Assembly: GCA_937925925.1 (NCBI GenBank) | Contig: CALANA010000091.1 | Coordinates: 1 to 64,000 of the forward strand | Length of the DNA: 64,000 nt | Source of the DNA: an uncultured Chloroflexales bacterium | GTDB lineage: Bacteria; Chloroflexota; Chloroflexia; Chloroflexales; Chloroflexaceae | Direction of reading: 5' to 3' | Shown here: piece after piece, positions 33,835-39,394 of the stretch | Position numbering within the stretch: position 1 is the first letter of the stretch | Layout of the letters: each line of letters begins with the position of its first letter | Notes under the pieces: generated by a model | What the model saw: only the letters and a program-made list of their open reading frames with translations | Told to the model about the DNA's origin: nothing | Database searches by the model: none | Program-made: the position numbers and the translations under genes

Positions 33835-34012
33835 GATGTACGCGGTGGGTCATCCGCTGACCAGGTGCGCCTGCGGCAGCGTGGAAGAAACGCGTTCTTT
33901 CCCCCCCCAATTTTCGCCGTAGGCGAAAATTGGGGGGGGAAAAACAAGAAAAGTACCGCTCTGCCGAAGGCGAAAAAGACGTCTTGTTTGATCTACCGCG
34001 TAACTCGTGTTC
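33835..34012. repeat. Family B element (B7)
   Basis: Ends AGGATGTACGCGGTGGGTC and CTACCGCGTAACTCGTG. The core hairpin has perfect 21-bp arms, 33898-33918 and 33922-33942 (TTTCCCCCCCCAATTTTCGCC), with loop GTA. Confidence 0.72.
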
Positions 34013-34239
34013 ATGACAAGAACATGCGGAATGTTCAAGTCAAAACGGTGTTACTCCACGCGTGAACAGGTACAACAACGCAACAATCGCTGTTCTTGAC
34101 AAATTTAACTCACAATGTTACCATTTTCCTATCAACGGCGCAGGAGACCACCATACCGATCCAGACGCCGTAGCCCGTTATAATCAATATGCGACACATT
34201 GCATCGTAGTGTATACTTAGCGCGGATTTTGCTCTAGCG

Positions 34240-34392
34240 TAGTACTATAACGAGCCTTCCCCTGGAACGAGATTGCGAGGGGGCGTAGAGACATTGCATG
34301 CAACGTCCCGCCGCCGCCCCTCCCCTATGGGGGGATGTAGGGGGGAGGGGCGCAGCGAAGCCGCGCCGAGACGAAGTCTCGTTGTAGTAGTA
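34240..34392. repeat. Family G short element directly upstream of sulfite reductase
   Basis: Terminal inverted repeats TAGTACTATAACGAG and CTCGTTGTAGTAGTA, with internal ATTGCATGCAACGT and GAAGCCGCGCC modules. The right end is 10 bp from the ATG of the sulfite reductase gene, so the gene's ribosome binding site (GGGAG) abuts the element. Confidence 0.6.
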
Positions 34393-34401
34393 GGGAGTCA
34401 T

Positions 34402-36132
34402 ATGCATAGTGAGACACCACTGGACGGAGATACGTTGTCAAAAGTTGAGCATATCAAAGTCAACAACGATGGTCTGGGTGGTTTGCTCTTTGAAGAGATT
34501 CTGGATGCAACCACCGATCATATCTCAGAAGACGCCTATCAACTGCTGAAGTTTCACGGGAGCTATCAGCAAGATGACCGTGATCTGCGTAAGGAGCGCA
34601 AAAAGCAGGGTCTTGATCGGGCCTGGCAATTTATGGTGCGCACCAAAACGCCCGGAGGTCGTATGACCGCCGAGCAATATTTGCTGGCGGATGAACTGGC
34701 GACACGCTATGCCAATAACACGTTGCGTATCACTACCCGCCAGGCTTTCCAGTTTCACGGCGTTGGGAAGGCCAATCTGAAACCGTTGATTCGCGCATTG
34801 AATGGACGCTGGATCAGCACCTATGGTGCGTGTGGCGATGTGGCGCGTAATACGCTCACGTGCCCGGTAGCCGATCTGTTGCCCGGTAACACCTTTGACT
34901 ACCAGGCACTGGCCCAAGAGGTGAGTGATCGCTTCTTGCCCGAATCCACGGCTTACTATGAACTCTGGCTCGATGGCGCGAAAGTGCTGGCCGACGGAAA
35001 AACCATAAAGATCGAACCCAATCGCCACGAGTCCTTTTATGGCCCGAACTATTTGCCGCGCAAACACAAGATCGGTATTGGTCTGCCTCACGACAACTGT
35101 ATTGACCTCTTTACCCACGATCTGGCGCTGGAGGCAGTGCTTGCCAGCGATGGAACCCTCAGTGGCTTTAACCTGGTGGCGGGTGGCGGGTTGGGTAGCA
35201 CACATGGCAAAGCGGAGACCTTTCCGCGTCTGGGTGACCGTATCGGATTTTTGCCACCGGACAGAGCGCTGGCGGTATTGGAAGCCGCGACGGCTATCTA
35301 TCGTGACTATGGCGATCGTACGAATCGGCGGCATGCGCGCCTGAAGTATGTGCTTGAAGATCGCGGTGTAGCCTGGTTTCAGCACGAGTTAGGTCGGCGA
35401 TTAGATGGGCCGCTGGCACCGCCCGCTGCGGTTCCCCGCTATAGTGTTGAAGATCATCTGGGCTGGCAGCAGCAGGCCGATGGGCGCTGGATGGTGGGCA
35501 TCTGGATCGAGAATGGGCGCATTAAGGATACACCACACGACCAGAGTAAACGCGGCCTGCGGGCGATCATAGAGGAGTTTCAGCCCGAAATCCGTCTAAC
35601 GGCGCATCAAAATATTGTGCTGGTAAATATTGCGCCGGAAGACAAGCCGCGGGTTGAGTCGTTGCTGGTATACTACCAGCTGGCAACGAGCGATGGGCAG
35701 GCTACCGGGCGGGGTACACTCAGCCAGTTGCGGCGCTATGCGATGGCTTGTCCTGCAATGCCCACCTGTGGGTTGGCAGTGGCTGAGAGCGAACGATTTT
35801 TGCCAGACGTTATCAGTGCGCTGGAGCAACGCGGCTATGGCGATGATCGGGTCTGGATTCGTATGAGCGGGTGCCCAAATGCTTGCTCGCGTCCACCCAC
35901 CGCCGAGATTGGCATCATCGGGCGTAGCCTCGGTTTGTACAATGTCTATCTGGGTGGCAGCTTTGAAGGCACACGCCTTGCACAGCTCTATCGTGAACAT
36001 GTTCGCGCTGATGTCCTGGTGGATCTGCTGGCAGACGTTCTCGATCAGTGGAAACGTGAACGGGCCGAGGGTGAAGCCTTTGGCGACTGGGCGGCGCGTG
36101 TGCTGTGGAGTTCAACGGCGGAAGCAATGTAA
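34402..36132 (+). CDS. cysI: Assimilatory sulfite reductase hemoprotein (siroheme, 4Fe-4S)
   Basis: 576 residues, close to the 570 of CysI. It reduces sulfite to sulfide with six electrons in the cytoplasm. Two ferredoxin-like half domains are visible, with FQFHGVGK and LTAHQNIVLVNI at the equivalent strands. The siroheme/4Fe-4S ligands are present: CPAMPTC (Cys about 450 and 456) and SGCPNACSR (Cys about 490 and 494). The tail LYNVYLGGSFEGTRLAQLYRE matches the sulfite reductase C-terminus. The start at 34402 is preferred over 34273, because the extra 43 residues would be encoded by the family G repeat. The APS reductase gene lies 260 bp downstream. No CysJ flavoprotein was seen, so the electron donor may be ferredoxin or encoded elsewhere. 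Confidence 0.9.
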   Translation: MHSETPLDGDTLSKVEHIKVNNDGLGGLLFEEILDATTDHISEDAYQLLKFHGSYQQDDRDLRKERKKQGLDRAWQFMVRTKTPGGRMTAEQYLLADELATRYANNTLRITTRQAFQFHGVGKANLKPLIRALNGRWISTYGACGDVARNTLTCPVADLLPGNTFDYQALAQEVSDRFLPESTAYYELWLDGAKVLADGKTIKIEPNRHESFYGPNYLPRKHKIGIGLPHDNCIDLFTHDLALEAVLASDGTLSGFNLVAGGGLGSTHGKAETFPRLGDRIGFLPPDRALAVLEAATAIYRDYGDRTNRRHARLKYVLEDRGVAWFQHELGRRLDGPLAPPAAVPRYSVEDHLGWQQQADGRWMVGIWIENGRIKDTPHDQSKRGLRAIIEEFQPEIRLTAHQNIVLVNIAPEDKPRVESLLVYYQLATSDGQATGRGTLSQLRRYAMACPAMPTCGLAVAESERFLPDVISALEQRGYGDDRVWIRMSGCPNACSRPPTAEIGIIGRSLGLYNVYLGGSFEGTRLAQLYREHVRADVLVDLLADVLDQWKRERAEGEAFGDWAARVLWSSTAEAM

Positions 36133-36212: not shown

Positions 36213-36240
36213 TTGACACACCAGACAAATAGGGTAAGAT
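36213..36240 (+). promoter_or_regulatory. Promoter of APS reductase gene
   Basis: TTGACA (36213-36218), a 16-bp spacer and TAAGAT (36235-36240). The start of transcription would be near 36247, giving a leader of about 145 nt before the ATG at 36393. Confidence 0.6.
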
Positions 36241-36327
36241 TCTGGTCGTATAGCGCTCCTTATTCATAGGAAGCAACATCTGATGCCATTGTACATATAA
36301 CCAGTATGGGGCAAGTGCGTTGAGGCA

Positions 36328-36374
36328 CGGACATAACAACAGACGATCGTCTGTCGTTGTGTCCGTTTTATTTT
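36328..36374 (+). terminator. Terminator-like hairpin in the leader of the APS reductase gene
   Basis: CGGACATAACAACAGACGAT folds on ATCGTCTGTCGTTGTGTCCG (a stem of up to 18 bp with two imperfect pairs), followed at once by TTTTATTTT (36366-36374). The ribosome binding site GGAAGG (36375-36380) directly follows the T-run. It could be the 3' terminator of an upstream transcript or a regulated attenuator. Confidence 0.6.
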
Positions 36375-36392
36375 GGAAGGACGGGTTTTGGT

Positions 36393-37115
36393 ATGAGATC
36401 ACTGACAGCAGAGGATGACGTTGCCCAGATCTGGACCGAAGATGAGATAGGTGAACTGAACGAACGATTCCGGGCATGTTCGACCGAGACGCTGCTTGAC
36501 TGGGCAACTGCTCGATTCGGTCAGGACATCGTGTTAACCTGTAGCTTTGGTGGCCCATCCGGTATGGTCTTGCTCGATATGGTGTCACGCCTGGAACGTG
36601 GTACGCCGGTCGTTTTCCTCGACACTGATTTACTCTTCCCTGAAACCTATGCGCTGGCCGAGGCGGCTGCCCAACGGTATGGGGTCACTATCCAACGTCA
36701 GCGCCCGGCTTTGACGCTGGCTGCACAGGATAAGATGGAAGGGCCACGCCTCTACGAGCGTGATCCAGACCGTTGTTGCGGCATCCGCAAAGTGGCTCCG
36801 TTAGCCGAGGCGTTGCGCCCCTATCAGGCGTGGATCAGCGGCATTCGCCGTGATCAGGCGCAGAGCCGGGCTGCGACGCCACTGATCCAGTGGAATACAC
36901 GTCACCATCTGCTCAAGATCAATCCGCTTGCTTTCTGGAATGATCGTGATGTCTGGCATTATATTCACACGCATGATGTACCCTACAACCCCCTGCTCGA
37001 TCAGGGTTACCCCAGTCTGGGCTGTATGCCCTGTACGCGACCGGCCAGTGCCCAGTCACCGCGCGCAGGCCGTTGGAACGGTTTTGCCAAAACGGAATGT
37101 GGCATTCACGTATGA
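36393..37115 (+). CDS. cysH: Adenylyl-sulfate (APS) reductase, Fe-S type
   Basis: 240 residues from the ATG at 36393 (GGAAGG 12 bp upstream). It reduces APS (or PAPS) to sulfite using thioredoxin. Visible motifs are the PP-loop-like TCSFGGPSGMVLLDM, VFLDTDLLFPETY, the Cys pair in RDPDRCCGIRKV (about 127-128), SGIRRDQAQSR, the CXXC in LGCMPCTRP (about 210-213), and the catalytic C-terminal KTECGIHV. The CC..CXXC set ligates a 4Fe-4S cluster and marks the bacterial APS-using subgroup, whereas E. coli-type PAPS reductases lack it. It has its own promoter and leader and supplies sulfite to the upstream sulfite reductase. No ATP sulfurylase gene is in the window. Confidence 0.92.
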   Translation: MRSLTAEDDVAQIWTEDEIGELNERFRACSTETLLDWATARFGQDIVLTCSFGGPSGMVLLDMVSRLERGTPVVFLDTDLLFPETYALAEAAAQRYGVTIQRQRPALTLAAQDKMEGPRLYERDPDRCCGIRKVAPLAEALRPYQAWISGIRRDQAQSRAATPLIQWNTRHHLLKINPLAFWNDRDVWHYIHTHDVPYNPLLDQGYPSLGCMPCTRPASAQSPRAGRWNGFAKTECGIHV

Positions 37116-37145: not shown

Positions 37146-37382
37146 TGACCAACGAGCCAGCGTCGCGGCGAGGGGGGCGGGGGCCTGCTGCCCCCACTCC
37201 TGTTCCTTTTCTGGTGCAGCGTGGTGAAGCCGCACCCTGTCCCCGCAGGGAGGGGCCGGGGGGTGTTGCATGCAATGCCCCCCGGCCCCGCGACATCGCG
37301 TTCCAGGGGAAGGCTCGTGGTCGTAGGCGCAAGAAGCATCAGCCGAACCAACGGATGAAGGCACATTGGTATAAGGCGCTGC
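37146..37382. repeat. Family G element
   Basis: Contains GGGGGCGGGGGCCTGCTGCCCCC, GTGCAGCGTGGTGAAGCCGCAC, GGGTGTTGCATGCAATGCCCC, CTTCGTGGTCG-type and CCAACGGATGAAGG modules, and ends ATTGGTATAA. It lies in the inverse orientation to the 3388 copy. No gene is seen between 37116 and 37541; the remainder (37383-37541) is featureless. Confidence 0.6.
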
Positions 37383-38098: not shown

Positions 38099-38322
38099 AG
38101 GACGTACACAGTCGCGTGAACCCAACGTTCCTTCGACTACGCTCAGAGCTTGCCCTGAGCGCAGTCGAACGGGACAAGCTTTTTCACCTGCGGCAGCGTG
38201 AAAGAGACACATTCTTTCCCGCCACATTTTTTCGCCTTCGGCGAAAAAATGTGGCGGGAAAAACAGAAAAAGGAGCGCTCTGCCGCAGGCGAAAACGGTC
38301 AGTGGATGACCCACCACGCACG
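38099..38322. repeat. Family B element (B8)
   Basis: Ends AGGACGTACACAGTCGCG and CCACCACGCACGCCTGG. The TTCGACTACGCTCAGAGC..CAGTCGAA palindrome spans about 38132-38169. The core hairpin has perfect 22-bp arms, 38215-38236 and 38240-38261 (TTTCCCGCCACATTTTTTCGCC), with loop TTC (GAA on the other strand). Confidence 0.78.
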
Positions 38323-39185: not shown

Positions 39186-39394
39186 CAGGACGTACGCGGT
39201 GGTCTGATCACCTCGCTTTTTCGCCTTCGGCAGAGTGGGACGTTGTCTTCTTTTCCCACCAAATGTTCCCCGTAGGCGAAAATTTGGTGGGAAGCTGCTG
39301 AAGGCGAAAAAGCTTGTCCCGTTCGACTGCGCTCAGGGCAAGCTCTGAGCGTAGTCGAAGGAACGTTGAGTTCATGCGACTGCGTACGTCCTGT
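39186..39394. repeat. Family B element (B9)
   Basis: Ends CAGGACGTACGCGGTGG and ACTGCGTACGTCCTG, the best-matched TIR pair of the family. Core hairpin arms are 39253-39264 and 39282-39293 (TTCCCACCAAAT) with a partly decayed loop side; the CTCAGGGCAAGCTCTGAGCG palindrome lies near 39330-39350. Confidence 0.7.

Follow-up and report, generated by a model that had tools for sequence, protein, structure and literature searches.

A candidate two-hairpin transcription attenuator ahead of cysH and cysI in some Chloroflexales

The analysed window, a stretch of 64,000 nucleotides, belongs to a 5.2-Mb draft genome that is 93% complete. Its relatives, among them assemblies of Roseiflexus, Chloroflexaceae and Herpetosiphonaceae, place it in the Chloroflexales. 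It carries two codirectional sulfate-assimilation genes on the forward strand. The sulfite reductase hemoprotein gene cysI (34402..36132, +) lies upstream of cysH (36393..37115, +), which codes for a (phospho)adenylylsulfate reductase of 240 amino acids (NCBIfam phosphoadenylyl-sulfate reductase). A sigma-70-like promoter, TTGACA-N16-TAAGAT (36213..36240, +), was read from the sequence ahead of cysH, with the -35 element at 36213-36218, the -10 element at 36235-36240 and a spacer of 16 nt. Transcription is predicted to start near 36247 and the ATG of cysH is at 36393, giving a leader of about 146 nt. The 5' part of the leader (36247..36314, +), which is unconserved and has no more structure than shuffled sequences, holds two five-codon ATG frames, which are not conserved either. 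It is followed by the hairpin H1 (36315..36328, +), GTGC-GTTGAG-GCAC, with a 4-bp stem and a 6-nt loop of the consensus RYNGNN. H1 abuts the terminator-like hairpin H2 (36329..36364, +) with the arms GGACATAAC...GTTGTGTCC, which AC/GU pairs could extend to 36327-36366. The predicted intrinsic terminator ends in the U-rich tract GTTTTATTTT (36365..36374, +), directly followed by the Shine-Dalgarno sequence GGAAGGA (36375..36381, +).

The surroundings contain further features. A promoter-like TTGACA-N17-TACCAT (34096-34124, +) precedes cysI. The long cysI leader (34270-34400) has a G-rich repeat-like stretch with TTGCATGCAA, and a similar TTGCATGCAA palindrome is located at 37252-37289. Three related intergenic palindromes, MITE- or REP-like (33898-33942, 38215-38261 and 39248-39293), are inverted repeats, almost perfect, whose arms of about 20 nt flank GGCGAAAA. 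The genome has no match to ATP sulfurylase (PF01747), though cysI and cysH are present; given the incompleteness of the draft, this may be an assembly gap or the use of another enzyme.

By pattern alone, promoter-like sites are at chance level, with 5 in 7 kb versus 4.2 in shuffled sequences. What lends the window promoter credibility is comparison with 14 other leaders, in which a similar TTGAC-N17-TA stands ahead of cysH or cysI. The promoter proposed for cysH in the earlier note, TTGACA-16-TAAGAT, was correctly placed and has counterparts elsewhere. The common sequence was found in the window at 36213-36240 and 34096-34124 and at L002, L003, L006, L015-L017, L019, L022, L028, L053, L054, L131 and L149. 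It is present with or without H1-H2 or a SAM-I leader downstream. Its spacer is weakly conserved around GATCAA and TATAT in Chloroflexales cysH and cysI promoters, and the shared pattern may be an operator to which a common sulfur regulator binds.

Among hairpins flanked by a T-rich tract, on whichever strand of the 64-kb window, H2 is the most stable (-24.1 kcal/mol; the next locus reaches -19.5). H1, H2 and the tract together (36315-36374) fold with -29.1 kcal/mol and z = -5.8, and none of 200 shuffled sequences was as good. The upstream leader (36246-36314) is no more folded than shuffled sequences (z = -0.3). A leader of about 145 nt ending in a strong hairpin, with the ribosome binding site following without a gap, had been described before, and this description holds. 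Conservation is confined to H1 fused to the terminator hairpin and does not extend to the whole leader, of which the first 70 nt or so are neither conserved nor structured. The end of cysI is 195 nt upstream in the same direction, so that the hairpin could be a mere cysI terminator, with cysH transcribed from elsewhere. This is very improbable: the cysH promoter sits between cysI and the hairpin, the 18 nt left between hairpin and ATG hold no promoter-like site, and the upstream gene is divergent at other loci.

These other loci came from a search for cysH in 60 relatives and the whole family, with minus-strand loci reverse-complemented. The order promoter, H1, H2 precedes cysH in the window and at five further loci, spread over four more Chloroflexales genomes: L002 of G059 (Herpetosiphonaceae bacterium KatS3mg057, on the same contig as L031 of that assembly), L015 of G012, L017 and L053 of G030 and L006 of G045. 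It also precedes cysI in G030, with the same promoter type, an H1 of GTGC-ACTGGC-GCAC and a re-paired H2. This amounts to only seven strong loci in five genomes, window included. Conserved stems, which the earlier note proposed to look for in relatives, exist. At G045 the sequence of H2 differs (GAACCCG..CGGGUUU) and still pairs. G009 (L003) has a degenerate copy, and G011, G014 and G016 have kept the promoter with the hairpins absent. The Roseiflexus-type cysH loci that were read have neither promoter nor hairpins. The cysH of G016 (L047/L054, G016:C308:3942-4624) is split over two reading frames, by a frameshift or an assembly error. In G030, G045 and G059 the cysH element is followed further downstream by sat; the ATP sulfurylase leaders examined had no separate copy of the element.

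The gene upstream is divergent at G059, G045 and G012, where H2 is therefore not the terminator of that gene, and also at the degenerate G009 copy. A predicted intrinsic-terminator hairpin lies between an inferred promoter and the start codon at all seven strong loci, which is the layout of an attenuator; the promoter in this layout is read from the sequence at every locus. A hairpin of terminator type placed after the promoter and ahead of the start codon, previously noticed in the window only, is an anatomy kept in five genomes, with compensatory changes. Strong U tracts are limited to the window and G059. Those of G012, G030 and G045 are broken by other nucleotides (5-7 U in 12 nt), and at these loci H2 may be a weak terminator or have a different function. 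Termination strength thus probably differs from locus to locus, unless H2 serves another role where the tract is interrupted.

The distribution was followed with covariance models. MAFFT on full-length elements put H2 out of register and loops were trimmed to equal length for the models, which consequently cover H1, the H2 arms and the tail, but not the H2 loop. Model R1, built from six leaders, was run on the order, the class (158 genomes) and a phylum sample. Over all of these sets, the 158 genomes of the class included, its strong matches were cysH leaders and one terminator in G074, with no others. A weaker match led to the cysI leader of G030. The other weaker model matches were, where inspected, coding sequence or ordinary terminators. 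The hold-out model R2 was made from four leaders of G059, G012 and G030, leaving the window out. On the 5.2-Mb genome of the window it gave a single match at E<=1, the cysH leader (36309-36374, E 0.0019, 21.8 bits). R2 also recovered the G030 cysI leader in a 285-kb set (E 0.003) and missed the G045 leader, with its different H2, and the degenerate G009 copy. The H1 pattern alone was uninformative, with 250 matches in five genomes. All strong model matches except the one in G074 precede cysH or cysI. The G074 site (L068, 1501-1560, minus strand; G074:C172:5548-5607; R1, 33.8 bits) looks like an ordinary terminator and lies between two converging genes, directly 3' of a gene and with no gene of the same direction behind it. 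A perfect H1 (GTGC-ATAGAC-GCAC) abuts a long hairpin at this site, the sole strong model match away from sulfur genes.

Four base pairs of H2 are changed on both sides, that is, by compensatory changes. The H2 arms pair in 97% of cells in the six-sequence set (18-51% in slid controls) and in 90% in the seven-sequence set (at most 54% in slid controls), percentages that lean towards structure because the arms were partly placed in register by hand. H1 pairs at all loci, with three of its four pairs invariant. With so little covariation H1 could be a DNA site. As a 14-bp inverted repeat, GTGC-N6-GCAC, it would be the operator of a sulfur regulator, and H2 would protect the 5' end of the mRNA as a stem or help a bound repressor to block the polymerase. 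The near invariance of the palindrome, half sites about one helical turn apart and the weak U tracts at several loci are in line with this. However, the gap between H1 and H2 is 0 nt in 7/7 loci, and the distance from promoter to H1 varies from about 20 to 68 nt. The fixed gap and the variable promoter distance suggest that H1-H2 is one unit, best explained at the RNA level. Moreover, the loop of H1 is conserved asymmetrically (positions 1, 2 and 4 of RYNGNN), and the outer H1 pair in G045 has changed from G-C to G-U with pairing kept. We consider an operator improbable. The zero gap and the asymmetric loop favour a role of H1 as RNA.

H2 could instead be an unconditional partial terminator that senses nothing and fixes the CysH level by stopping a constant share of transcripts, both those begun at the cysH promoter and those reading through from cysI. 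The high stability of H2 and the position of cysI just upstream in the same direction agree with this. So does the search for an alternative structure or upstream antiterminator, which found none: the best upstream partner of either H2 arm was no better than in shuffled sequences (p 0.57 and 0.30 in the window), and likewise in nearly all relatives. The alternative antiterminator considered in the earlier note finds no support. Switching through H1 or a protein would need no upstream antiterminator. For constant termination, however, an adjoining H1 with its conserved stem and loop would be superfluous, and several loci have a divergent gene upstream. A fixed terminator is unlikely, although it is the least unlikely of the rival explanations.

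The same results bear on ribosome-mediated attenuation by a short leader peptide. The five-codon ATG frame seen earlier upstream of the hairpin exists, and there are two such frames (MPLYI* and MGQVR*). Neither has a Cys codon and neither has a counterpart in the leaders of relatives. The 5' arm of H1 has UGC, a Cys codon, in 7/7 loci, yet the UGC frame is without a start codon in the window and G059, and there is no conserved reading frame, start codon or Shine-Dalgarno sequence. With an unconserved, Cys-less peptide and antiterminator pairing no better than in shuffled sequences, leader-peptide attenuation is unsupported and, of all the explanations considered, the most improbable.

Bacteria regulate sulfate assimilation either with proteins such as CysB and CymR or with RNA leaders of the SAM-I, T-box and leader-peptide kinds. 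A search of the leader against Rfam (4227 models, T-box included) gave nothing at gathering score, and a relaxed threshold gave chance-level matches only. SAM-I (RF00162) has no match in the window and the leader has no S-box core, so the earlier view that this is not a SAM-I leader was right and extends to every other Rfam family. A literature search found no described cysH leader of Chloroflexi. Sister lineages carry SAM-I in the same place. SAM-I leaders precede cysH at L021, L022, L026 and L028 (Herpetosiphonaceae and L021) and cysI in G037, G046 and G049 of another Chloroflexales sister family. In another Chloroflexales family, cysH lies just downstream where SAM-I precedes cysI (L138, L142 and L143). 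The genome of the window has four SAM-I copies elsewhere. The new sulfur-responsive leader that the earlier note considered possible is upheld as far as the link to sulfur genes goes: with one exception, the strong matches lie ahead of cysH or cysI, and SAM-I occupies this place in sister lineages.

From comparative sequence analysis we consider it somewhat probable that some Chloroflexales use H1-H2, rare and uncatalogued, as a transcription attenuator made of two hairpins to control genes of sulfate assimilation. Attenuation is the best-supported role because H2 follows an inferred promoter and precedes such genes, because the gene upstream is divergent at G059, G045 and G012 (and G009), and because SAM-I is found in the same slot in sister lineages. 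RNA polymerase would start at TTGACA/TAAGAT and transcribe an unstructured spacer, H1 and then at once H2 with the U tract. Some transcripts would end near 36374, and the remainder would read into cysH. The 3' arm of H1 overlaps the last 2-3 extendable H2 pairs beside the U tract in the window and three others (4/7); the overlap is absent in 3/7 (G059, G045 and the G030 cysI leader). As H1 abuts H2 and overlaps its last pairs at four loci, H1 is probably the control point, and the formation of H1 versus the fully extended H2 may set the termination frequency. The choice between them would probably depend on binding of a protein or of a small metabolite of sulfur. By stabilising H1, such a ligand could weaken the base of the terminator beside the U tract, similar to the HMP-PP riboswitch (PMC6478431).

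More tentative, and improbable at present, is the wider proposal that H1-H2 represents a new, minimal regulatory RNA class of Chloroflexales. It would be an aptamer or a protein-binding RNA, fused to a terminator and sensing a metabolite of sulfur assimilation (e.g., cysteine, OAS, sulfide or APS/PAPS), and it would have replaced SAM-I at cysH and cysI. Within one order, the same gene is headed by SAM-I in one family and, in others, by a different leader of two hairpins that is far smaller. The replacement of one regulatory RNA by another could thus be tested in a natural case, and the element is a compact candidate for a novel RNA that responds to sulfur, or for the target of a novel RNA-binding regulator.

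Among known systems, SAM-I (S box, RF00162) is alike in heading the same genes in sister lineages. In well-studied cases it regulates via a terminator. Its aptamer comprises 108 positions, whereas H1-H2 has about 50-60 nt in two short hairpins. The HMP-PP riboswitch (thiS motif) is a compact terminator-embedded aptamer of thiamin synthesis genes (PMC6478431). Like it, H1-H2 is very compact and has a small stem abutting, and at 4/7 loci overlapping, a predicted intrinsic terminator, so that switching could occur within the terminator itself. In the HMP-PP riboswitch the terminator loop is conserved (PMC6478431); here, the H2 loop is variable, H1 is conserved and the genes are those of sulfate assimilation. 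The uORFC-8-2 motif, the cysS attenuator of Rhodobacterales, likewise consists of two stems before a cysteine-related gene, and its second stem with a run of U forms an intrinsic terminator; its uORF, with Cys codons in tandem, is conserved (PMC8632094). The leaders described here have no conserved uORF. H2 and its U tract fit the definition of an intrinsic terminator. Unlike intrinsic terminators in general, H2 sits between promoter and gene, with a conserved hairpin abutting it.
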